Assembly: GCF_028292945.1 (NCBI RefSeq)
Contig: NZ_JAQGLJ010000128.1
Coordinates: 1 to 64,000, forward strand
From: Sphingomonas bacterium
Lineage (GTDB): Bacteria; Pseudomonadota; Alphaproteobacteria; Sphingomonadales; Sphingomonadaceae
DNA: 64,000 bases
Reading direction: 5' to 3'
Positions within the stretch are counted from its first letter, which is position 1; each line of letters starts with the position of its first letter. The translations under genes were made by a program, and so were the position numbers. This document shows, in pieces, positions 19,529-32,737 of this stretch. The notes beneath the pieces were generated by a model that worked only from the letters and a program-made list of their open reading frames with translations, searched no databases and was not told where the DNA came from.

Positions 19529-22150
19529 ATGTCCGCCCGCCCCGGATCCGTCACCGCCGTGCTCGGGCCGACCAACACCGGCAAGACGCATCTCGCGATC
19601 GAGCGGATGTGCGGGCATTCATCCGGCATCATCGGCTTCCCGCTGCGGCTGCTCGCGCGCGAGGTCTATGACCGGGTGGTCGCGATCAAGGGCAGGGAGC
19701 GCGTGGCACTCGTCACCGGCGAGGAGAAGATCGTCCCGCCCGACGCGCGCTGGTTCCTGTGCACCGCCGAATCGATGCCGAGCCACGAAGCGTCGTTCGT
19801 GGCACTCGACGAGGCGCAGCTGGGTGCGGACCCCGAGCGCGGCCACGTCTTTACCGATCGCCTGCTGCGGTTTCGCGGCCGCGACGAGACGATGATCCTC
19901 GGTTCCGAAGCGTTGCGCCCGATGATCCGCGCGTTGGTGCCCGATGCCGAGATTGTCGCGCGGCCACGCTTTTCGACGCTGACCTATGCGGGTGCCAAGA
20001 AGATCAGCCGGCTACCCAAGCGGACCGCGATCGTCGCGTTCAGCGCCGAGGAGGTGTACGCCGTCGCCGAGATGCTGCGACGCCTGCGCGGGGGCGCAGC
20101 GGTGGTGATGGGCGCGCTCAGCCCCCGCACCCGTAACGCGCAGGTGGCGATGTTCCAGGCGGGCGAGGTGGATTACCTAGTCGCGACCGATGCGATCGGC
20201 ATGGGGCTGAACATGGACGTGGCGCATGTCGCGTTCGCGTCGCTGCACAAGTTCGATGGTCGTCGCCAGCGCCGCCTGACCGTCGCCGAGATGGCGCAGA
20301 TCGCCGGCCGCGCGGGTCGCCACCAGCGCGACGGGACGTTCGGGTCGGTGACGGAGGAAGGACCGGGCGCGTTCGGGCCGGAGGAGGTGCTGGCGATCGA
20401 GGAACACCGCTTCCCGCGCCTGGAGCATCTCTACTGGCGCGACGGCGAGCCCGACCTGTCGAGCATCGACGCGCTGATCGCCAGCCTGGAGCGTCGGCCC
20501 GACGACCCCGTGCTGCGACCCGCCTCGCAGGCGCTCGATCTCGGGGTGCTCAAGCGCCTGGCGGACGATCCGGAGGTGCGCGACCGGGTGCGCTCGCCAT
20601 CGGCGGTCGCGCGGCTGTGGGCGGCGTGCGGTGTGCCCGACTTCCGCAAGGTCGGACTCGACCCGCACGCGCGCTTCGTGGCGCGGCTGCACGGCTATCT
20701 CAGCAGTGGGAACGGCTATGTCCCGCACCAATGGTTCGCCGACGAGATCGCGCGGCTCGACACGGTGGCGGGCGATGTCGAAGTGCTGGCCGGGCGCGTC
20801 GCCGCCGTGCGCACCTGGGCCTATATCGCCCACCGCCCGAACTGGCTCGCCGACCCCGCGCATTGGGCGGAGCGCACGCGCGCGATCGAGGAGCGCCTGT
20901 CCGACGCGCTGCACGCAAGCCTGACCCAGCGCTTCGTCGACAAGCGTACCACCGCGCTGATGCGCCAGATCGGCGCGGGCGCGAGCGCGATGCCGGTGGT
21001 GATCGGCGCCGAGGGCGAGGTGCTGGTCGAGGATCACCCGATCGGCCGCCTCGACGGCTTCCGCTTCACCGTGGCGGCGGACGCGCGAGCGGGCGACAAG
21101 CGCTTGCTGCTGGCGGCGGCGGAACAGCGGCTGGGCGGCGAGCGTGCCGCGCGGGCAAGAGCATTGGTGGCGGCGGGGGACGAGGCGTTCGAACTGAAAG
21201 TCGAGATCACGCCGTCGGCACAGCCCCTCCCCGGCGAAAGCCGGGGCCCAGCTCCCACTGAGGATTGCCGGGAAAGCGGCAGTCGGCGCAAAGCGCCGAC
21301 ACTGGGCCCCGGCTTTGGCCGGGGAAGTGATGAGGCCGAGGCCGCACCCACGATCCGCTGGCAGTCCCACCCCATCGCCACCCTCGCCTCCGGGCCTTCC
21401 CCCGCCCGCCCCCAGATCAAACTCGACCGCAGCCTCGACGCGCTCGAGCCCCCCGCGCGTGCCGCGATCAAGGTGCGGGTGGAACGATGGCTGGCGGATC
21501 AGCTCGCGCGTCGCGTCTCCGCCCTTGTGCGCCTGGCAGACCTGTCCCGCGACCGTGACGTCAGCCCGGCATTGCGCGTTATCGCGGGCGCGCTGGAGGC
21601 GGCAGGCGGCATCGCGCCGCGCCGCCCGCTTGCCGTATCGCTCGACGCGCTGCCGCTGCCAGAGCGCAGGCTGCTGCGGCAGGCCGGCGTGACGGTCGGC
21701 GCGCTCGACCTGTTCGCGCCCGCGCTGCTCAAGCCGGACGCTGCGCGTTGGCGTCGCACGCTGCTGTCGCTCAAGGGCGACGCGCCGCCGCTGCCGCCGA
21801 CCGGTGCCACGGTGCTGCCACGCGCTACGGGCGGCGCGACGCTGGCCGCCGGCTTTCGCCCGATCGGGGCGCAGGCGGTGCGCGTCGATCTGGTAGAACG
21901 GATCGCGGGCGCGGCGTTCGAGGCACGATCCGGACGCAAGCCCTTCACGCCCGACCCGGCGCTCGCCACGTCGATCGGGCTGGAGCCAGCGACGCTCGCA
22001 CGGCTGATGGCGGAACTGGGCTTTCGCCAGGTCGCGGGTGAGGAGGGGCAATGGGCGTGGCGCGGCCGCCCGCCTGTCCGCCCGGTTGCGCCGACGGCGC
22101 GCCCCGACAGCGCGTTCGCCGCGCTAGCCGACTGGGGTGCGGGTGGCTGA
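19529..22150 (+). CDS. Suv3-like DExH RNA helicase
   Basis: VTAVLGPTNTGKTHLAIERM, FVALDEAQLGADPERGHVFTDRLL, VDYLVATDAIGMGLNMDVAHVAF, QIAGRAGRHQRDGTFG. Confidence 0.92.
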   Translation: MSARPGSVTAVLGPTNTGKTHLAIERMCGHSSGIIGFPLRLLAREVYDRVVAIKGRERVALVTGEEKIVPPDARWFLCTAESMPSHEASFVALDEAQLGADPERGHVFTDRLLRFRGRDETMILGSEALRPMIRALVPDAEIVARPRFSTLTYAGAKKISRLPKRTAIVAFSAEEVYAVAEMLRRLRGGAAVVMGALSPRTRNAQVAMFQAGEVDYLVATDAIGMGLNMDVAHVAFASLHKFDGRRQRRLTVAEMAQIAGRAGRHQRDGTFGSVTEEGPGAFGPEEVLAIEEHRFPRLEHLYWRDGEPDLSSIDALIASLERRPDDPVLRPASQALDLGVLKRLADDPEVRDRVRSPSAVARLWAACGVPDFRKVGLDPHARFVARLHGYLSSGNGYVPHQWFADEIARLDTVAGDVEVLAGRVAAVRTWAYIAHRPNWLADPAHWAERTRAIEERLSDALHASLTQRFVDKRTTALMRQIGAGASAMPVVIGAEGEVLVEDHPIGRLDGFRFTVAADARAGDKRLLLAAAEQRLGGERAARARALVAAGDEAFELKVEITPSAQPLPGESRGPAPTEDCRESGSRRKAPTLGPGFGRGSDEAEAAPTIRWQSHPIATLASGPSPARPQIKLDRSLDALEPPARAAIKVRVERWLADQLARRVSALVRLADLSRDRDVSPALRVIAGALEAAGGIAPRRPLAVSLDALPLPERRLLRQAGVTVGALDLFAPALLKPDAARWRRTLLSLKGDAPPLPPTGATVLPRATGGATLAAGFRPIGAQAVRVDLVERIAGAAFEARSGRKPFTPDPALATSIGLEPATLARLMAELGFRQVAGEEGQWAWRGRPPVRPVAPTARPDSAFAALADWGAGG
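21224..21326. repeat. Palindromic element inserted in frame within the helicase gene
   Basis: Arms TCCCCGGCGAAAGCCGGGGCCCAG (21228-21251) and CTGGGCCCCGGCTTTGGCCGGGGA (21302-21325) are inverted repeats with 23/24 matches; inner stem GTCGGCGC-aaa-GCGCCGAC (21282-21300). Confidence 0.85.
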
Positions 22151-22448
22151 CACCATGCGGCTCGACCGTTTCCTGTGGTGGGTGCGGCTGGCAAAGACCC
22201 GTTCCGCCGCACAGGCGCTCGCAGCCGACGGCCGGCTGCGTATCGACGGACGCCCGATCGACCGCGCGCATGCCGCGGTGCGGGTCGGCAACGTGCTGAC
22301 CTATGCCAGCGGTCAGCACGTGCGCGTGGTGCGCGTCGAGGCGCTGCCCGCGCGGCGTGGCCCGGCGCCCGAGGCGCAGGCGTGTTACGCCGACCTTTTA
22401 GGCTCGGCGGCCCCTGCAAACGTCTCGCAACAGTCCGCGTCCGATTGA
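22137..22448 (+). CDS. S4 domain RNA-binding protein (Hsp15-like)
   Basis: MRLDRFLWWVRLAKTRSAAQALAADGRLRIDGRPIDRAHAAVRVGNVLTY. Confidence 0.88.
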   Translation: MRVADTMRLDRFLWWVRLAKTRSAAQALAADGRLRIDGRPIDRAHAAVRVGNVLTYASGQHVRVVRVEALPARRGPAPEAQACYADLLGSAAPANVSQQSASD

Positions 22449-22517
22449 CGCCTATCGGAACGCGGCATAGCAGCGTCGCGTTCAACGCCGGGCCGGCCCG
22501 GCATTGGGGGAAGATCA

Positions 22518-22859
22518 ATGACCTACGTCGTTACCGACGCCTGCATCCGCTGCAAGTACATGGACTGCGTCGAGGTTTGCCCCGTGGATTGCTTCTACGA
22601 AGGCGAGACGATGCTGGTCATCAACCCGTCCGAATGCATCGACTGCGGCGTATGCGAGCCCGAATGTCCGGCCGAGGCGATCCTGCCCGACACCGAGGCG
22701 AACCTGGAGCAGTGGCTGGAGCTCAACGCCACCTTCTCCGCCAATTGGCCCAACGTCACGCGCAAGGCCGATCAGACCCCCGCGGACGCCGACGAGCACA
22801 AGGGCGAGGCGGGCAAGTACGACAAGTATTTCACCCCAGATGCCGGGGCCGGCGACTAA
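22518..22859 (+). CDS. fdxA: 7Fe-8S type ferredoxin FdxA
   Basis: [55 protein letters not shown]. Confidence 0.96.
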
Positions 22860-23166
22860 GGCGCAAGCGCGGCAGCCGGCCACGCCCGGCTGACTCGCGC
22901 CAGCCCGGCCGGCGACGGCCCCCCGCAAAGTTTTATTTTGCAGGGCGCCCCGGTGTCGGCACCGCCGAACCCGTTCGACGACGCTTGGGAAGCCAAAGTG
23001 CGCCAGCTATCCTGACGGAAAGCTAGCAATTTTCTTACAACCATGTTAATGGTGCCGCGACGGGCGATTCCGCCCGCTTGTGAACATCTGCATCTTTTTC
23101 GTGAACTTGGCTCGGGCGGCTAGCCCGACGTCATCGCGACGGATGCGCTGCAAGGAAAGGCCATCC

Positions 23167-23700
23167 ATGGCTGCCAAGGCGCTGCTCTTCGACGTCGGCG
23201 ATTACGTCGTTTATCCCAAGCACGGCGTCGGCCGCGTGATCGAGCTGCAGAAGCAGGAGATCGCCGGGCTCAGCCTCGAACTTTACGTGCTGCGTTTCGA
23301 GAAGGAGCGCATGACGCTCCGGGTGCCGACCAACAAGGCCGAAGCGGTCGGGATGCGCAAGCTGTCGTCCGACAAGACGATGCGCGAGGCGATGGACACG
23401 CTCAAGGGCAAGCCGAAGGTCAAGCGCACCATGTGGTCCAGGCGGGCGCAGGAATATGAGGCGAAGATCAACTCGGGCGATCTCGTCTCGATCGCCGAGG
23501 TGACCCGCGATCTGTTCCGCGCCGAGGACCAGCCGGAGCAGAGCTATTCCGAGCGCCAGATCTTCGAAGCCGCATGCTCGCGCCTCGCGCGCGAACTCGC
23601 CGCGATGGAGCAGATCGACGAACCGGGTGCGCAGGTGAAGATCCTCGACATCCTCCGCGCGGCGGCGGCGATCTACAACAAGGACAAGGTGCCGGCCTGA
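23167..23700 (+). CDS. carD: CarD family transcriptional regulator
   Basis: FDVGDYVVYPKHGVGRVIELQKQEIAGLSLELYVLRFEKERMTLRVPTNKAE. Confidence 0.95.
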   Translation: MAAKALLFDVGDYVVYPKHGVGRVIELQKQEIAGLSLELYVLRFEKERMTLRVPTNKAEAVGMRKLSSDKTMREAMDTLKGKPKVKRTMWSRRAQEYEAKINSGDLVSIAEVTRDLFRAEDQPEQSYSERQIFEAACSRLARELAAMEQIDEPGAQVKILDILRAAAAIYNKDKVPA

Positions 23701-23772
23701 GGCCGAACCTCGGTCAACGTGGCTCCTGTTCAAGGGTCCATGCGAGCCGGTTGCAGCTGGCGTGAGGCTGAT

Positions 23773-23810
23773 GCCGCGCATGGATGCTGAACGGGTTCAG
23801 CATGACGAAG
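23773..23810. repeat. Dispersed palindrome (GCGCATGGATGCTGAAC...GTTCAGCATGACG)
   Basis: CGCGCATGGATGCTGAACGGGTTCAGCATGACGAAG, near identical to 1221-1251 and 52490-52515. Confidence 0.75.
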
Positions 23811-23814
23811 AAGA

Positions 23815-23843
23815 AGGGCGGTCCTGCGGGGCTGCCCTTTTTC
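23815..23843 (+). terminator. Possible Rho-independent terminator downstream of carD
   Basis: GGGCGG...CTGCCC stem (with wobble) followed by TTTTT. Confidence 0.4.
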
Positions 23844-23899
23844 ATTGGCGTGTGTGCCCAAGTGTGTCACGTTCACACTACACTACCGGAGAGTTCACG

Positions 23900-24637
23900 A
23901 TGCGCGTTCTGGCCCTGGCCATGCTGCTGCCCCTCGCCGCCTGCAACGTCGGCGCGAGCAGCGGCGACACGGACGACGGCACTCCCGGCGTCGCCGCGCA
24001 GGGCTCGGGCAATACGCGGACCTACGCCGTCGCCGACTTCACCGGCGTCGATCTGCGCGGGGCGGACGATGTCGACGTGCGGGTCGGCCCCGGCTTTTCC
24101 GTGCGTGCCGATGGCGACCCGCAGCTGCTCGATCGGCTGAAGATCAGCAAGGTCGGCACGACGCTGCGCATCTCCCGCACCAACACCGCCGGCTGGAACT
24201 GGAGCGGCGACGACGCGAAGATCGCGATCACGTTGCCGCGGCTGGTCGAGGCGTCGGCCGCCGGGTCGGGCGACATGACGGTCGATCGGGTCGCGGAGGA
24301 GCGGTTCAAGGGCGCGGTCGCCGGCTCGGGCAGCCTGTCGATCGCCGCCCTGCAGGTGCAGGAGGCCGACATCGCGCTGGCCGGCTCTGGCGATGCCAAG
24401 CTCGCCGGCACCGCGCGCGCGCTGAAGGTCTCCGTCGCCGGTTCGGGGGATGTCGACGCGGCCGGACTCAAGGCAAGCGGTGCCGAGGTATCGATCGCCG
24501 GCTCCGGCAGCGTCAAGGCAGTGGTGGAGGGTCAGGCCAAGGTCTCCGTCGCGGGCTCGGGCAACGTCGATCTGGGCGACAAGGCGCAATGCCAGACAAG
24601 CAAGCTCGGCTCCGGCACGGTCCGCTGCGGCCAGTGA
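23900..24637 (+). CDS. Head GIN domain (DUF2807) lipoprotein
   Basis: Lipobox LPLAAC; repeated (V/I/L)AGSG(S/D/N) beta-helix turns; GNTRTYAVADFTGVDLRGADDVDVRVG. Confidence 0.82.
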   Translation: MRVLALAMLLPLAACNVGASSGDTDDGTPGVAAQGSGNTRTYAVADFTGVDLRGADDVDVRVGPGFSVRADGDPQLLDRLKISKVGTTLRISRTNTAGWNWSGDDAKIAITLPRLVEASAAGSGDMTVDRVAEERFKGAVAGSGSLSIAALQVQEADIALAGSGDAKLAGTARALKVSVAGSGDVDAAGLKASGAEVSIAGSGSVKAVVEGQAKVSVAGSGNVDLGDKAQCQTSKLGSGTVRCGQ

Positions 24638-25347
24638 TGCCGCGCCGCCTCCTGCCCTTCGCGTTGCTCGCGGTCGCCGCCGCGGCCCCTGCGGCACAAC
24701 GAAAAGTGCAGATCACCAGCTTCGAACGGATGCGCGTCGAGGGGCCGTTCCAGGTCGCGGTGATAACGGGTCGCTCGCCCACCGCCACGATCAGCGGCGA
24801 CCCGCGTCGGCTGGAGCGGGTCGACGTGCGCGTCGATGGCCGCACGCTCGTGATCCGCACGCCCGCCGGGCTCGCGCGCGAGGAGCGTGGGGCGGAGAGT
24901 GGGCCGAGCGCGCCGATCCAGATCATGCTCGGCACGCCGACGCTGACATCGGCGACCGCGATCGGCGGCGGCGCGCTAACGATCGCGGGCGGACGGGTGC
25001 CGCGGCTCGACCTGTCGGTCGCCGGCGCCGGCTCGATCGCGTTCGCGAGCGCGGAAGTGGAACAGGTAAACGCGACCGTGATCGGCAACGGCCAGATCAC
25101 GCTGGCCGGCCGCGCCGCGCGCGCGCGGCTGCTTATCAATGGCGCGGGCAGGATCGATGCCGATGGACTGGAAGCCGGCGAGCTGATTGTGCGCATGGAC
25201 GGTCCGGGCGAGGCGACCGCGCGGGCTCGCTTCATCGCGGACGTAACGAACACCGGGCTGGGCCGCGTCACCGTGGCTGGCGCGCCGAAATGCACGGTGA
25301 AGAACGTGGCCGGCGGCCCGGTGGAATGCGGGGCACCGGCACGGTAG
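24637..25347 (+). CDS. Head GIN domain (DUF2807) protein, secreted
   Basis: Signal peptide MPRRLLPFALLAVAAAAPAAQ; ITSFERMRVEGPFQVAVITG...; ATGA overlap with the paralogue upstream. Confidence 0.8.
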   Translation: MPRRLLPFALLAVAAAAPAAQRKVQITSFERMRVEGPFQVAVITGRSPTATISGDPRRLERVDVRVDGRTLVIRTPAGLAREERGAESGPSAPIQIMLGTPTLTSATAIGGGALTIAGGRVPRLDLSVAGAGSIAFASAEVEQVNATVIGNGQITLAGRAARARLLINGAGRIDADGLEAGELIVRMDGPGEATARARFIADVTNTGLGRVTVAGAPKCTVKNVAGGPVECGAPAR

Positions 25348-25355
25348 CCCCCCCT

Positions 25356-25379
25356 CCCTCTCCCGCAAGCGGGAGAGGG
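25356..25379. terminator. Bidirectional hairpin between convergent genes
   Basis: CCCTCTCCCGC-aa-GCGGGAGAGGG perfect 11-bp stem between convergent DUF2807 and DUF1489 genes. Confidence 0.5.
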
Positions 25380-25784
25380 TTAGATAAGCGCCAGTTCCGC
25401 CAGCTTGCCCACCAGCGCCGGCGGCATGTCCGCGACGCCGCCCGCTTCACCAACCAGATCGGCCGGCGCGTCGGCATGCTCCAGATAGCGCCAGCCCTGA
25501 TGTGCGCGTTTGGGTCGCGCGAGTACCAGCATCAGCGTCGGATCGAGGTGGATCGCCACCCGGCCGCCTTCCGCCTCACCGAAGTGCAGGATCGCCGAGC
25601 GCGCGACGAGTTGATGCTTGATGATCCAGTAGAGCGAGCCTTGTCCGGCCACTTCCTCGTGCCGCTTGGGCAGGTAGCGCGTCGACAGGAACAGCGGTCC
25701 CTCCTCAGCCCGCGCGCGCAGGCGCTCGGCGAGATAATCGGCGCTGTGGCAGCCGAACGCTACCTTGGTCAGATGAAGCGGCAC
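25380..25784 (-). CDS. DUF1489 family protein
   Basis: (V)PLHLTKVAFGCHSADYLAERLRARAEEGPLFLSTRYLPKRHEEVAGQGSLYWIIKHQLVARSAI. Confidence 0.82.
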   Translation of the reverse strand: MPLHLTKVAFGCHSADYLAERLRARAEEGPLFLSTRYLPKRHEEVAGQGSLYWIIKHQLVARSAILHFGEAEGGRVAIHLDPTLMLVLARPKRAHQGWRYLEHADAPADLVGEAGGVADMPPALVGKLAELALI

Positions 25785-25815
25785 GCCGCTGGATGTGGGC
25801 GGGCGAACATCAGCG

Positions 25816-27222
25816 TCAACCCGTCCCGACCAGGCCGGTCGCCACGGCCAGCCCCAGGAACGCAAAGAACCCCATCGAGTCGGTCACCATCGTCACGAAC
25901 ACCGACGAGGCCACGGCGGGATCCTGGTTGAGCCGCTCCAGCGTCACCGGCACGACCACGCCGGCCAACCCTGCAACGGCGACGTTGATGACGATCGCGC
26001 CCGCGATCACCAGCCCCAGCTGCACGTTGCCGAACCACAATGCCGCGCCCGTGCCGAGCAGCACCGCGACCGTGCCGCCGTTCATCAGCGCCACCGTCAT
26101 CTCGCGGCGCAGCGTGCGCAGCGTATTCGATTGCGTCAGCTGATTGGTCGCCAGCGCACGCACCGCCACCGCCATCGTCTGCGTCCCCGCGTTGCCGCCG
26201 ATCGACGCGACGATCGGCATCAGGATCGCCAGCGCCACCATCTGCTCGATCGCGCCGCCGAATGCGGCGATGATCGACGAGGCGATGGCGGCGGTGAACA
26301 GGTTGGCGACCAGCCAGCGGACCCGCTGGACATAGGTATCGCGCAGCGGCTCGTTGATGTCGCCCTCGCCCGCACCCGACAGCAGCAGCGCGTCCTCGCC
26401 CGCCTCCTGCTGGATGATGTGGACCACGTCGTCGACGGTGATCATTCCCACCAGCCGCCCGCTGCCGTCGACCACCGCGGCGGAGATCAGCGCATATTTC
26501 TGAAACCGCAGGCCCACCTCTTCCTGGTCCATGTCGACCGGGATCAGCGTCTGTTCGCGCTTCATCACGTCCGCCATGGCGACGGTGCGGGGCGTGCGCA
26601 GGATCCACGACAGCGCGCAGGTGCCGACCGGATGATGCCGGCCGTCGACCACGAACACTTCCCAGAAGTCGGTGGTCAGATCGTCATGCCCGCGCAGGTA
26701 ATCGATCGTGTCGCCTACCGTCCAATGATCGGGCACCGCGATCAGCTCGCGCTGCATCAGCCGGCCGGCGGTCTCCTCGCCATAGCTGAGCGCCTCCTCG
26801 ATCGCGGCGCGATCGTCGGGCTCCATCGCGCGCAGCACCTCGCGCTGCTCGTCGGCGTCCAGATCCTCGATGATCGCGACCGCGTCGTCGGTGTCCAGCT
26901 CCGACGCGATGTTCGCCACCTGCGTCGCGGACAGCTCGTCGATCAGGTCCTCGCGGACCCAGTCGTTCATCTCCGCGAACACGTCCGCGTCGAGCAGGTC
27001 GGACAAAGCAGCCGCCAGCGCGTCGCGGCGGTCGGTCGAGGTCAGCTCGAACAGATCGGCGATATCGGCCGGGTGCAAGGGGGCAACGAGCGCACGCGCG
27101 CCCTCCGCGTCGCCCGCCTCGACGGCATCAAGCACCGCGTCGACGAACTCGGGCCGCAGCCGGTCGTCGCGATCCAGCTGGTCGCCCGCGATCTCGGGTT
27201 CGGGAAGCTCGGTCTGGTTCAC
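25816..27222 (-). CDS. mgtE: Magnesium transporter MgtE
   Basis: CBS-type N-domain plus C-terminal TM domain with IVASIGGNAGTQTMAVAVRAL. Confidence 0.95.
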   Translation of the reverse strand: MNQTELPEPEIAGDQLDRDDRLRPEFVDAVLDAVEAGDAEGARALVAPLHPADIADLFELTSTDRRDALAAALSDLLDADVFAEMNDWVREDLIDELSATQVANIASELDTDDAVAIIEDLDADEQREVLRAMEPDDRAAIEEALSYGEETAGRLMQRELIAVPDHWTVGDTIDYLRGHDDLTTDFWEVFVVDGRHHPVGTCALSWILRTPRTVAMADVMKREQTLIPVDMDQEEVGLRFQKYALISAAVVDGSGRLVGMITVDDVVHIIQQEAGEDALLLSGAGEGDINEPLRDTYVQRVRWLVANLFTAAIASSIIAAFGGAIEQMVALAILMPIVASIGGNAGTQTMAVAVRALATNQLTQSNTLRTLRREMTVALMNGGTVAVLLGTGAALWFGNVQLGLVIAGAIVINVAVAGLAGVVVPVTLERLNQDPAVASSVFVTMVTDSMGFFAFLGLAVATGLVGTG

Positions 27223-27328
27223 GCGCGCCTCCCTGATCGGACAGGCCGCGCCCTACCGCGCCGCAGCATGATTTGCCAGCCGCGCACGCGCCGATTAGGG
27301 CGTCGCCAACATCCCGAAAGGATCATTC

Positions 27329-27784
27329 ATGGCCGACTTCTCCACGCTCACCCTCACCCTGGACGGCGGCGACGTCGTCATCCGCTTCCGCCCCGACCTC
27401 GCGCCCGGCCACGTCGCCCGCATCGCGGAGCTGGCGAACGAAGGGTTCTACGACGGCGTGCCGTTCCACCGCGTCATCCCCGGCTTCATGGCGCAGGGCG
27501 GCGATGGCGGAAAGGGCGACGGAACGGGCGGCTCCACCAAGCCCAACCTGAAGGCGGAGTTCTCCAAGGAGCCGCACGTTCGCGGCACCTGTTCGATGGC
27601 ACGCACCAATCAGCCGGACACGGCCAATTCGCAGTTCTTCATCTGCTTCGCCGACTCACGCTTTCTCGACGGGCAGTACACCGTCTGGGGTCAGGTGGAG
27701 AGCGGCATGGAGCTGGTCGACGCACTCCCCGTCGGCGAGCCCCCCCGCGCGCCGGGCAAGATCGTGACGGCGAAGGCTGCGTAG
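27329..27784 (+). CDS. Cyclophilin-type peptidylprolyl isomerase
   Basis: FYDGVPFHRVIPGFMAQGGDGGKGDGTGG...CSMARTNQPDTANSQFFICFADSRFLDGQYTVWGQV. Confidence 0.95.
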   Translation: MADFSTLTLTLDGGDVVIRFRPDLAPGHVARIAELANEGFYDGVPFHRVIPGFMAQGGDGGKGDGTGGSTKPNLKAEFSKEPHVRGTCSMARTNQPDTANSQFFICFADSRFLDGQYTVWGQVESGMELVDALPVGEPPRAPGKIVTAKAA

Positions 27785-27917
27785 AAGGAGGTAGCTAAAG
27801 CTTCGCCCGAGTCCAATGACGGTGTAAGAGGCACGGGTCGAGAAGTTGGCAGCCTCGACTATAGGGCAGCAACCTCCGGCCCCACCCGGCGTTTATCCTC
27901 GCGACAGAGGTGCCGGT

Positions 27918-28229
27918 ATGGCGGACGAAGAGTTCCCGCGTGAGGACGAACTGGAAGGGCGGCAGGCTGCCGCCCTCTATCCCGTCGGCCGTGCGTTGCG
28001 GACGACGTTCGACGCGGAGAACCATGACAGCCTGGGCAATGACCTGACCGGGTTGATGCTGGAGCTGGCGCATATCGATCCCGACGCGCCGCCGCTGCCC
28101 AGACCGGTGGTGCCACCGCTCGCGTCGACGCCGGTGCCGATCCCCCCAATCGTTGCCGCCGAAGCGAGTACGCCTGCGGGTGAGTCAGCATCGTGGTGGC
28201 GCAGCGCCGTGGACAAGCTGATGCGCTGA
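27918..28229 (+). CDS. Conserved hypothetical protein
   Basis: MADEEFPREDELEGRQAAALYPVGRALRTTFDAENHDSLGNDLTGLMLELAHI... Confidence 0.6.
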   Translation: MADEEFPREDELEGRQAAALYPVGRALRTTFDAENHDSLGNDLTGLMLELAHIDPDAPPLPRPVVPPLASTPVPIPPIVAAEASTPAGESASWWRSAVDKLMR

Positions 28230-28308
28230 CGGCGAGTCCTTAATCGAGATTGCCGTTCCCTATGCCACCCCTGTCCCCCCTCAACCCGATCGGCTAGGCG
28301 TCGCGACG

Positions 28309-29469
28309 ATGGCAACGACGATCACCTGCGACGTCGCGATCGTCGGCGGCGGGCTTTCGGGCGGGTTGCTGGCGCTGGCGCTGCGCGGCAAACATCCGGC
28401 GCTCGACGTTCGGCTGGTCGAGGCGGGCGACCGCGTCGGCGGCAATCACGTCTGGTCGTTCTTCGGCACGGACATCGCCGACGCCGATCGCTGGCTGCTG
28501 AGCCGACTGATCAGCCATGCCTGGCCCGGTTACGATGTCAGCTTTCCCGCGCACGTCCGCACCATCGGCCAGCCCTATTATTCGATCGAGAGCGAGCGAC
28601 TGGACGCTGCCGTCCGCGCGGCGCTGCCCGACGACGCGCTGATGCTGGGCGCGCGCGTGCTCGCCGTTTCGCCGGCCGCGGTGACGCTGGCCAGCGGCGA
28701 GCGGATCGAGGCGACGGGCGTTATCGACGCGCGCGGGACCGCGGACCTGTCGCACTTCGAACTGGGATGGCAGAAGTTCCTGGGCCGCGAGTTGCGGCTG
28801 GAAGCGCCGCATGGACGCGAGCGGCCGATGATCATGGATGCGAAAGTGCCGCAGCTGGACGGGTTCCGCTTTGTCTATTCGCTGCCCTTCGCGCCCGACC
28901 GGATGTTCGTCGAGGACACGTATTTCTCCGAGTACGGCAAGCTGTCGGCGGCGACGCTGCGCAAGCGCGTGGACGGCTATGCGGCGGCACAGGGCTGGAC
29001 GATCGCCGAGTGCCTGCGCGAGGAACAGGGCGTGCTGCCGATCACCATGGGTGGCGATTTCCAGGCCTATTGGAACTCGGGCGGGCGCGGCGTCGCAAAG
29101 ATCGGCATGCGCGCCGGCCTGTTCCAGCCCGCGACCGGCTATTCGCTGCCCGATGCGGTGCGCAGCGCGGTGCGGCTGGCGGCGCGGCGCGACTTCGAGA
29201 GCGCGGCGCTGCATGAAGCGACGCACGCGCATGCCGCACGGACGTGGCGGGAGCGGCGCTTCTATCGGATGCTCAACGCGATGCTGTTCCGCGCCGCCGA
29301 CGCGCCCGAACGCTACCGGGTGATCGAGCGTTTCTATCGTATGCGGCCCAATCTGGTGCGGCGTTTCTATGCTGGAAGTTCCACGCTTGCCGACAAGGCA
29401 CGCATCCTGACCGGTAAGCCGCCGGTGGCGGTCGGCCGCGCGCTGATGGCGATTCGGGGGGTGTCGTGA
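28309..29469 (+). CDS. crtY: Lycopene beta-cyclase
   Basis: CDVAIVGGGLSGGLLALALRGKHPALDVRLVEAGDRVGGNHVWSFFGTDI...LDGFRFVYSLPFAPDRMFVEDTYFSE. Confidence 0.96.
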   Translation: MATTITCDVAIVGGGLSGGLLALALRGKHPALDVRLVEAGDRVGGNHVWSFFGTDIADADRWLLSRLISHAWPGYDVSFPAHVRTIGQPYYSIESERLDAAVRAALPDDALMLGARVLAVSPAAVTLASGERIEATGVIDARGTADLSHFELGWQKFLGRELRLEAPHGRERPMIMDAKVPQLDGFRFVYSLPFAPDRMFVEDTYFSEYGKLSAATLRKRVDGYAAAQGWTIAECLREEQGVLPITMGGDFQAYWNSGGRGVAKIGMRAGLFQPATGYSLPDAVRSAVRLAARRDFESAALHEATHAHAARTWRERRFYRMLNAMLFRAADAPERYRVIERFYRMRPNLVRRFYAGSSTLADKARILTGKPPVAVGRALMAIRGVS

Positions 29470-30944
29470 AGAGCGCCATCGTCGTGGGTTCGGGGTTCGG
29501 CGGGCTGGCGCTCGCGATCCGGCTGCAATCGGCCGGCGTCGCGACGACGTTGGTCGAGGGCCGCGACAAGCCGGGTGGGCGCGCGTATTATTGGGAGCGC
29601 GACGGCTTCGTCTTCGACGCGGGGCCGACCGTCATCACCGATCCGGCGTGCCTGAAGGAGCTGTGGGCGCTGTCGGGGCGCGACATGGCGCATGACGTAG
29701 AGCTGGTGCCGGTAAGCCCCTTCTACCGGCTCAACTGGCCGGACGGCACGAATTTCGACTATTCGAACGACGAGCAGGCGCTGACCCGCGAGATCGCCAA
29801 GCTGAACCCGGCGGATGTCGCTGGCTATGCGAAGTTTCTGGAATATTCGGCGGGCGTCTATCACGAGGGCTATGAGAAGCTCGGCCATGCCGCGTTCCTT
29901 GACTTCGCGTCGATGATCAGGGCGGCACCTGCCTTGGCGAGATACCAGGCGTGGCGATCGGTTTATTCGATCGTGTCGTCCTATGTATCGAACGAGAAGC
30001 TGCGCGAGGCGCTGTCGTTCCACACGCTGCTGGTCGGAGGCAATCCGATGACCACCAGCGCGATCTACGCGCTGATCCACAAGCTGGAAAAGGATGGCGG
30101 CGTCTGGTTCGCGATGGGCGGGACCAACAAGCTGGTCGCGGGCATGGTGACGCATTTCGAGCGGCTCGGCGGGGTCGTCCGGCTCAACGACCCGGTGACG
30201 GAGATCGAGACGCTGGGCGAGCGCGCGACCGGCGTGACGACGGCGAGCGGCTGGCAGGGCCAAGCGGACGCGATCGCCGCCAATGCCGATATCATGCACA
30301 CCTACAAGACGCTGCTGCGCGGCTCGCGCTCGGCGCAGCGGACGCGCGGGCGGCTGGAGCGCAAGAAGTATTCGCCGTCGCTGTTCGTGGTGCATTTCGG
30401 CGTGACGGGGACGTGGCCGGGCATTCCGCACCATTCGATCCTGTTCGGGCCGCGTTACAAGGGGCTGCTCGACGACATCTACAAGCATGGTGTGGTGCCG
30501 GAGGATTTCTCGCTGTACCTCCACCACCCGACCGTCACCGACCCGTCGATGGCCCCCGAGGGGCATTCCACCTTCTACGCACTCGCGCCGGTGCCGCACA
30601 TGGGCAAGTCGCCGGTCGACTGGGACGTGGTCGGCCCGCTGCTGGAGAAGCGCATCCTCGACGAGATCGGGCGGCGGCTGATTCCCGACATCCACGAGCG
30701 GATCGTGACCAAGTTCAGCTACGCCCCGCCGGATTTCGCGCGCGACCTGAACGCGCATCTGGGGTCCGCGTTCTCGCTGGAGCCGACGCTGCTGCAGAGC
30801 GCGTATTTCCGGGTGCACAATCGGGATGATGCGATCTCGAATCTGTATTTCGTCGGCGCCGGGACGCATCCGGGCGCGGGGATACCGGGCGTGGTCGGGA
30901 GTGCGAAGGCGACGGCGAAGCTGATGCTGGAGGGGGCACCGTGA
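29466..30944 (+). CDS. crtI: Phytoene desaturase
   Basis: KSAIVVGSGFGGLALAIRLQSAGVATTLVEGRDKPGGRAYYWERDGFVFDAGPTVITDP...YFVGAGTHPGAGIPGVVGSAKATAKLML. Confidence 0.97.
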   Translation: MKSAIVVGSGFGGLALAIRLQSAGVATTLVEGRDKPGGRAYYWERDGFVFDAGPTVITDPACLKELWALSGRDMAHDVELVPVSPFYRLNWPDGTNFDYSNDEQALTREIAKLNPADVAGYAKFLEYSAGVYHEGYEKLGHAAFLDFASMIRAAPALARYQAWRSVYSIVSSYVSNEKLREALSFHTLLVGGNPMTTSAIYALIHKLEKDGGVWFAMGGTNKLVAGMVTHFERLGGVVRLNDPVTEIETLGERATGVTTASGWQGQADAIAANADIMHTYKTLLRGSRSAQRTRGRLERKKYSPSLFVVHFGVTGTWPGIPHHSILFGPRYKGLLDDIYKHGVVPEDFSLYLHHPTVTDPSMAPEGHSTFYALAPVPHMGKSPVDWDVVGPLLEKRILDEIGRRLIPDIHERIVTKFSYAPPDFARDLNAHLGSAFSLEPTLLQSAYFRVHNRDDAISNLYFVGAGTHPGAGIPGVVGSAKATAKLMLEGAP

Positions 30945-31069
30945 ACGACCCGGAGCCCTTCGGATTTGGAGACCGGTGGTTTGATCGAGTGGTTTCGATC
31001 AGAACATTCTCCATCTTAGCCGTCGTATTCGCGGCAGGATTGGTCTGGTCGCGTGTGGAGTTCTTCTAG
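30941..31069 (+). CDS. Small single-pass membrane protein in the crt cluster
   Basis: GTG-start ORF VNDPEPFGFGDRWFDRVVSIRTFSILAVVFAAGLVWSRVEFF*, overlapping the crtI stop and abutting the next ATG; absent from the supplied ORF track. Confidence 0.5.
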   Translation: MNDPEPFGFGDRWFDRVVSIRTFSILAVVFAAGLVWSRVEFF

Positions 31070-31651
31070 ATGAGGCGCCTAGCGATCTACTGCGGCTCCG
31101 CCACGCCTGCCGACCCCGCCTATATCGCCGAAGCGCGTGCCGTCGGGCGCGGGCTGGCCGAACGCGGGATCGGTGTCGTGTATGGCGGCGGGCGGCTGGG
31201 GTTGATGGGGGCGGTGGCGGACGCCGCGCTGGAAGCCGGCGGCGAGGTGATCGGGGCGATCCCGCGCGCGCTGGTCGACATGGAGGTGGCGCATCGCGGA
31301 CTGACGGAATTGCACGTCGTCGAGACGATGCATCAGCGCAAGCAGCTGTTCACCGACCTGTGCGACGGCTTCGTCACGCTGCCCGGCGGCACGGGGACGA
31401 TGGACGAACTGTGGGAGGCGCTCAGCTGGGCGCAGCTGGGCTATCATGCCAAGCCGGTGGGGTTGCTCAATTCGGGCGGCTTCTATGACGGTTTGGTCAG
31501 CTTCTGGACGACCATGAGCGAAGTGGGTTTCGTGCGGCCGCAGCATGTCGAATTGCTGATCGTGGGCAATTCGCTGGACGCGCTGTTGGAGCGGATGACG
31601 GCGTTCGTGCCGGTGCAGACGATCGTGGCGACGAAGGCGAGCGATCTGTGA
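31070..31651 (+). CDS. LOG family protein (TIGR00730)
   Basis: GIGVVYGGGRLGLMGAVADAAL...VETMHQRKQLFTDLCDGFVTLPGGTGTMDELWEALSWAQLGYHAKPVGLLN. Confidence 0.94.
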   Translation: MRRLAIYCGSATPADPAYIAEARAVGRGLAERGIGVVYGGGRLGLMGAVADAALEAGGEVIGAIPRALVDMEVAHRGLTELHVVETMHQRKQLFTDLCDGFVTLPGGTGTMDELWEALSWAQLGYHAKPVGLLNSGGFYDGLVSFWTTMSEVGFVRPQHVELLIVGNSLDALLERMTAFVPVQTIVATKASDL

Positions 31652-31663
31652 CAGCCCTTTCTT

Positions 31664-31776
31664 CCACCCCGGCGAAGGCCGGGGCTCAGTCACACAGGTT
31701 CAAGTTGGAGAGCGCAGTCCGCTGCCTGCTAGCGCATCGTGACTGGACCCCGGCTTCCGCCGGGGAGGGGCTGAGG
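31664..31776. repeat. Palindromic element related to the one in the helicase
   Basis: CCCCGGCGAAGGCCGGGGCTCAGTCAC ... GTGACTGGACCCCGGCTTCCGCCGGGGAGGGGCTGAG between the LOG gene and crtB. Confidence 0.8.
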
Positions 31777-31807
31777 GCGAGGACTGCCAACGACGTCGAG
31801 GCGTAGG

Positions 31808-32737
31808 GTGGACCGCACCACCCTCGTCGCACATGCCCGCGCGTCGATAGCGCGGGGGTCGAAGTCGTTCGCCGCCGCGTCCAAGCTGTTCGACCCGGTC
31901 ACGCGCGAACGCGCGTGGCTGTTATATGCCTGGTGTCGGCGATGCGACGACGTCGTCGATGGGCAGGATCACGGCCACACGATGAGCGCGGTTGCCGATG
32001 CGCCGGCGCGGGTGCGCGAGGTGGCGGATCTGACCGCTATGGCGCTCGCGGGCAAGCCGACCGGCGACCCGGCGTTTGACGCGCTGGGGTTGGTCGCCGC
32101 CGAGGTCGCCCTGCCCCACCTTTGGCCGCGCGACGTGATCGCCGGGTTCGCGCTCGACGCCGACGAATGGCAGCCGAAATCGGCGGATGACCTGTATCGT
32201 TACTGCTACGCCGTCGCCGGCGCGGTCGGGTGCATGATGGCGGTGGTGATGGGCGTGCCGCCCGACGACGAGGACACGCTGGACCGCGCGTGCGACCTGG
32301 GCATCGCCTTCCAGCTCGCCAATATCGCGCGCGACGTGGGCGAGGATGCCGCCGCCGGGCGCTGCTACCTGCCGCACGACTGGCTGGCGGAGATGGATAT
32401 GGGACCGGGCGAACACATGAAGCCGCATTACCGGCCCCGGCTGGCGGTGCTGGCGAAGCGGCTCGCGGGGTGCGCGGCTGCGTACGAGGCGAGCGCGCGC
32501 GCGGGGACGCCGGCGCTGCCGCTGCGATCGGCCTGGGCGGTGCTTGCGGCGGCGAACATCTATGGCGCGATCGGGCGCGCGGTGGCGGATCGGGGCGAAC
32601 ACGCCTGGGATCATCGGGTGACGACATCGCGCGCGGATAAACTCGGCTTTGTCGCGAAGGCCGGCTGGCAGGCGGCGCGACGCCGGACGTTGTATCCACC
32701 CGTCTCGCGTGACGGGCTGTGGACGCGGCCGCGCTGA
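31808..32737 (+). CDS. crtB: Phytoene synthase
   Basis: GSKSFAAASKLFDPVTRERAWLLYAWCRRCDDVVDGQ...AFQLANIARDVGEDAAAGRCYLPHDWL. Confidence 0.96.
   Translation: MDRTTLVAHARASIARGSKSFAAASKLFDPVTRERAWLLYAWCRRCDDVVDGQDHGHTMSAVADAPARVREVADLTAMALAGKPTGDPAFDALGLVAAEVALPHLWPRDVIAGFALDADEWQPKSADDLYRYCYAVAGAVGCMMAVVMGVPPDDEDTLDRACDLGIAFQLANIARDVGEDAAAGRCYLPHDWLAEMDMGPGEHMKPHYRPRLAVLAKRLAGCAAAYEASARAGTPALPLRSAWAVLAAANIYGAIGRAVADRGEHAWDHRVTTSRADKLGFVAKAGWQAARRRTLYPPVSRDGLWTRPR

Follow-up and report, generated by a model that had tools for sequence, protein, structure and literature searches.

A palindromic block within a Suv3-like helicase gene

The window, that is, the whole stretch of 64,000 nt of Sphingomonas DNA that was analyzed, contains on its plus strand (19529..22150) a gene for a protein of 873 amino acids. 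The first-pass annotation had described this protein as a Suv3-like helicase, a designation backed by matches to the Pfam families DEXQc_Suv3 (E 1.8e-22) and Helicase_C (4e-11); the nearest solved relative is Suv3. The reading frame stays open through a palindromic DNA block, and the peptide that had been attributed to this block is indeed encoded there. The block is a REP-type dimer insert of about 108 nt on the plus strand (21223..21330), equivalent to 36 codons or approximately residues 566–600. It had previously been placed at 21224–21326; the insert itself was recovered, whereas its edges were moved to about 21223–21330 based on conservation within the repeat family, in which GCCCYT is located 5′ of each hairpin. 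These edges are approximate because some 8–9 residues of the gene itself, outside of the element, are likewise unmatched in relatives.

The two arms of the palindrome, TCCCCGGCGAAAGCCGGGGCCCAG (21228–21251) and CTGGGCCCCGGCTTTGGCCGGGGA (21302–21325), are 24 nt each and complementary at 23 of the 24 positions. They enclose a spacer with a second, perfect stem, GTCGGCGC-AAA-GCGCCGAC (21282..21300, plus strand), so that both inverted repeats reported in the first-pass annotation could be located within 21228–21325. Each arm holds a hairpin of its own. The left hairpin, CCCCGGCGAAAGCCGGGG (21229..21246, plus strand), is preceded by GCCCCT and followed by the tail CCCAG; the right hairpin, CCCCGGCTTTGGCCGGGG (21307..21324, minus strand), is an inverted copy, with the minus strand reading CCCCGGCCAAAGCCGGGG and then CCCAG. 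The RNA of the 108-nt insert has a predicted folding energy of −81.5 kcal/mol, compared with a mean of −50.0 kcal/mol for shuffled sequences (z = −8.65), and none of 200 shuffles folded equally well. The predicted fold is a single long rod with a branched tip.

In an AlphaFold2 model based on the window protein together with 34 orthologues, residues 561–603 have pLDDT values below 50 and lie between two confident strands, 554–557 and 608–611. The mean pLDDT of the model is only 66, with a poorly modelled N-terminal helicase core, and the surroundings of the loop are well modelled. In this model, the insert is a segment without a predicted fold that joins two strands. Its very low confidence is what would be expected of the disordered surface loop that the first-pass annotation had proposed to look for; it supports such a loop but is not decisive, since an insert without aligned relatives would score low as well.

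The repeat family in the genome and in the genus

If the block is a dispersed element, its arms should recur, and a genome-wide search indeed found copies throughout the genome. The perfect pattern CCCCGGCN3-6GCCGGGG has 91 matches in the 2.79-Mb draft, compared with none for the reversed-pattern control, and the full element has 95 candidate places. The aligned copies have in common the half-site GCCCYT-CCCCGGCGRAAGCCGGGG-CCCAG, mostly arranged as inverted pairs in which the span over both hairpins is about 62 nt or about 91–97 nt; 46 inverted dimers of this CCCCGGC repeat were analyzed in the family alignment. One further copy, with a different spacer, is located within the window at 31667..31765 (no strand assigned), between predicted genes that end at 31651 and start at 31808. 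The related intergenic element annotated earlier at 31664–31776 is thus real, with hairpins at 31667–31684 and 31748–31765. A few of the 91 matches represent a recurrent 19-mer with a 5-base loop, CCCCGGCTCAAGGCCGGGG, apparently a different repeat (G000 C1:11305, C23:30208, C44:5651, C62:22773, and C65:1541).

Across 37 genomes of the genus, the hairpin counts range from 2 (G033 and G012) to 370 (G017), with control counts of 0–2, whereas 24 genomes of the same order but outside the genus have 0 to 11. Of 70 element clusters in the window's own genome, 5 fall within predicted genes and the other 65 are intergenic; these contexts are approximate and represent a sample, not a census, as they were assigned by running a simple gene finder, with the window as training sequence, on the stretches around the clusters. 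The elements have on average 4.9 open frames of six, versus 4.1 of six in shuffled sequence of equal composition, a surplus that would aid survival inside genes.

Several known types of element were considered and set aside. A known structured RNA was dropped because Rfam gave no match up to E 1 in the region 21000–32000. A RAYT-driven REPIN was ruled out because a RAYT-type gene (Y1_Tnp, PF01797) is absent from this genome and from the four relatives richest in the repeat, G017, G019, G029, and G015. For target-site duplications flanking the 46 dimers, the best of 432 offset/width combinations was found in 4 of the 46, versus 0.5 expected, which is not meaningful after so many tests; unlike a classical MITE, the element has no direct-repeat signal beyond chance in these dimers.

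Recurrence at the helicase loop

The block is absent from all 29 same-genus orthologues that were aligned first, and at the site 21223..21330 the same-genus orthologues compared have a gap, save for those that carry a palindromic insert of their own there. No orthologue among those compared encodes the same peptide without the palindrome. In 74 of 80 named Sphingomonadales orthologues, the loop segment comprises 20–26 residues, compared with 68 in the window protein. The remaining six have 38–50 residues in this segment, and palindromic DNA was found in all of them.

These inserts belong to two families. Family A is the CCCCGGC repeat (for example in L131, Sphingomonas sp. DG1-23), and family B, the TTCGACAAGCTCAG family, has the form GTTCGTGCTGAGCTTGTCGAAGC...CTTCGACAAGCTCAGGGCGAAC, which is unrelated in sequence to family A (S. 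caeni L120, S. gei L124, and others); some family B inserts are hybrid or degenerate. The literature search found no account of the family B core sequence as a repeat. When 295 Sphingomonas genomes, about 286 of them with a detectable helicase gene, were searched with inserted queries and the best-scoring loci were read, a palindromic insert at the helicase loop was found in at least 22 of the approximately 286, a lower bound. Eight carry family A (the window's own genome G000, G263, G146, G228, G133, G274, G065, and G182), and 14 carry family B or a degenerate form (G285, G138, G140, G279, G258, G185, G243, G097, G077, G227, G202, G232, G315, and G262). In about 92% of the genomes, no insert was detected at this loop. 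The reading frame is kept by 21 of the helicase inserts, with G262 as the sole exception among the carriers. The family B insert of G262 (L268) has an internal frame break in an assembly that is a single contig and 88% complete, and a sequencing error is possible.

Sister species can carry different families at this loop, namely A in L230 and B in L267. Furthermore, in a tree of 135 helicases calculated with the loop left out, the window's own copy and those of G279, G285, G138, and G140 lie on distant branches, surrounded by uninserted relatives. The differing families of sister species and the wide separation of the carriers argue for repeated insertion at the helicase loop. By parsimony, with the states none, A, and B and hand-checked family labels, the tree implies 16 changes among these states, or 13 after collapsing branches with support below 95 and resolving the forks most favourably, in a set that is enriched by design in inserted genes and with a method that is blind to gain versus loss.

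For this last reason, the count of changes would also be compatible with one or a few ancestral insertions into the loop, followed by many losses and by sequence turnover. Such a history, which rivals the recurrence but not the insertion itself, fits with the grouping of several helicase inserts in two clades and with partial deletions: the helicase of L277 looks like a deletion remnant, and that of L265 perhaps is also partially deleted. It is hard to reconcile with the alternation of unrelated families between L230 and L267 and with distant carriers amid uninserted relatives, and we consider it unlikely.

The helicase also has a second site of length variation, after residue 84 of the window protein, where insertions of 11–12 residues are present in L131, L143, L150, L163, L164, L166, L167, and L168.

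Other genes carrying the repeat

The helicase is not unique, because the linker of Sua5 and a site in a cysteine desulfurase take repeats as well; permissive loops collect repeats. In the window's own genome, a copy at L015:1508–1601 is in frame in the gene for the threonylcarbamoyl-AMP synthase Sua5/TsaC, where it covers about residues 212–243 of the interdomain linker, between the YrdC domain (20–192) and the Sua5 C-terminal domain (249–342). Of 101 Sphingomonas genomes, 17, including this one, hold a family A repeat in this linker, and all 17 inserts keep the frame and lack a stop codon. Many of them have one peptide in common and hence probably go back to one event; those of G017 and of the window's own genome differ from this group.

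The cysteine desulfurase copy (L028:1504–1565) is the short form of 62 nt, in frame at about residues 263–283, and the alignment with a solved homologue jumps at the element by 36 residues against 14. A match running through this site was found in 6 of 100 other genomes, and the readable ones vary in length. Their insert peptides differ (for example SPLPSREGAGVGGERSE and RHAGLVPAS), and several of them resemble other small repeats; G067 has a TAG at the insert site. A further copy, in a gene for a CcmA-like ABC ATPase (L093:141–202), accounts for most of the protein's C-terminal end. A hairpin in a GST-like gene (L089), the fifth of the intragenic cases, was rejected as an insertion and is a chance hairpin, since the protein shows no insert when aligned over its full length with its family.

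Comparison with known repeat systems

In-frame palindromic repeats in genes have so far been known mainly from Rickettsia, with scattered cases elsewhere. The likeness to Rickettsia palindromic elements claimed by the first-pass annotation is apt. The elements of the RPE-1 type and their relatives are likewise in-frame palindromes in unrelated protein genes, with orthologues that lack them, and add extra peptide segments. In-frame insertions in conserved genes that are absent from orthologues were found here in the helicase, Sua5, and the cysteine desulfurase genes. The Rickettsia elements differ by their length of about 150 bp, their lineage, and their preference for genes: nearly half of the R. 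conorii elements are within genes (PMC10969869), compared with about 4 of 70 clusters here. This comparison is by description, not by sequence.

A closer counterpart are the CGTC-tagged REPs of alphaproteobacteria, which include RPE-4 and RPE-6 of R. conorii as well as families of S. wittichii (Di Nocera et al., 2013, PMC3733652). Head-to-head dimers prevail among them, a dedicated transposase is lacking, and some copies are found in genes, where, as the authors suggested, insertions may be neutral because of their position in flexible linkers or loops (PMC3733652). The loop, the tail, and the head-to-head dimer of the element described here correspond to these REPs, RPE-4 and RPE-6 included. 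Both are short hairpins with a 4–5-base loop (4 nt, GRAA, in our element) and structured spacers; they are mostly intergenic and occasionally in frame in genes. Both have an unpaired tail of the CCA type, here CCCAG or TCCAG, with A and G at positions +4/+5 in all 59 units from relatives, and both form predominantly head-to-head dimers (the 46 analyzed here) without a PF01797 transposase gene. However, the terminal CGTC (or TGTC/CCTC) is missing, with GCCCYT as the consensus of the 46 dimers and CGTC within 12 nt in only 5 of the 59 units from relatives. The CGTC REPs also have a stem of 8–9 bp whose first two positions are A/T, in contrast to the seven GC pairs without outer A/T found here. 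Because the CGTC tag and the outer A/T pairs are missing, the element is not filed as a member of the CGTC REPs, although it works like one.

The GTAG REPs and REPINs of Pseudomonas and enterobacteria, which are associated with RAYT, resemble our element as dispersed inverted hairpin pairs, but here the end is GCCCYT instead of GTAG and a RAYT-type gene is lacking. The enterobacterial RU elements (Delihas, 2007, PMC2759123) are also small repeats with open frames that became fused into genes, of other size classes and in other hosts; they were compared by description, not by sequence.

A further difference from the CGTC REPs is that our element occupies one loop recurrently and shares this loop with a second, unrelated family. 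The nearest parallel is recB of X. campestris and X. oryzae, in which REPs are present at about the same site (PMC3733652). There, too, differing REPs share a single site in a gene, but two species are involved, whereas the helicase loop is occupied in at least 22 genomes and by two unrelated families. The new part is that the same helicase loop is filled by palindromic inserts of two unrelated families across Sphingomonas. No description of such repeated use of one loop across a genus was found in the papers searched; single cases may be among the genes listed in the supplement of PMC3733652.

Origin and fate of the inserts

In our interpretation, the block arose when a palindromic repeat of the REP type inserted into the gene, and genic copies of this repeat survive if they are in frame in permissive loops and are then translated; we assign this reading a probability of about 85%. 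The inserting unit would be a structured spacer flanked by GCCCYT-CCCCGGCGRAAGCCGGGG-CCCAG and its inverted copy, in a genome without a RAYT gene of its own. Selection would remove most intragenic copies, and those surviving would be the ones that keep the frame, lack a stop codon, and are located in loops or linkers of the protein. The helicase insert would be translated into about 35 flexible residues rich in Pro, Gly, Arg, and Ser that would link two beta strands in the C-terminal part, with a probably small, near-neutral effect on the fold. At least two unrelated palindrome families would have struck this loop repeatedly in the genus. Of the mobile protein-coding insertion proposed by the first-pass annotation, the in-frame, lineage-specific, and dispersed nature was observed; transposition and translation are what we infer from it, and the family as a whole is mainly intergenic.

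Repeats of this kind appear to supply new protein segments time and again. Within one free-living genus, the same loops of conserved genes can be compared with and without an insert, and two repeat families are represented. Because many filled and empty versions are available, two questions become testable, namely by what route such palindromes are dispersed in the absence of a known transposase, and whether the protein segments that they add are neutral or useful. It is conceivable, but at present a doubtful extension, that unrelated palindromic repeats are, in Sphingomonas genomes, a recurrent source of in-frame loop insertions for which the helicase, Sua5, and cysteine desulfurase loops are preferred or selected acceptors, with segments that are adaptive and not merely tolerated.

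A related alternative is that the helicase insert is kept by selection for a function, for example because the mRNA hairpin tunes helicase expression or because a longer loop alters the binding of RNA or of a partner. The high stability of the hairpin and the repeated strikes of two families at this loop would agree with a function, as would the over-representation of REPs in DNA-handling genes in a published survey (PMC3733652). Yet no structure is predicted for the loop, the inserts show no relationship in sequence or frame, an insert was not detected in most genomes, and remnants such as L277 suggest decay. Moreover, Sua5 and cysteine desulfurase, which have no function in common, follow the same pattern. 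A selected function is thus quite unlikely.

If the palindrome were cut from the message or bypassed by the ribosome, so that it would be absent from the protein, neither frame nor stop avoidance would be needed, yet 21 helicase and 17 Sua5 inserts comply, and the single frame-broken helicase copy sits in the 88%-complete, single-contig assembly of G262. Hairpin bypassing is known from some yeast mitochondria, and the RNA hairpin is extremely stable, but we regard skipping as very improbable. An artefact of assembly or contamination, which might be suspected in a draft of 130 contigs with some repeat copies at contig ends, is hardly credible, as the helicase copy is located 21 kb inside a 68-kb contig, flanked on either side by intact gene sequence, and 21 further genomes, single-contig assemblies (G133, G185) among them, have equivalent inserts.
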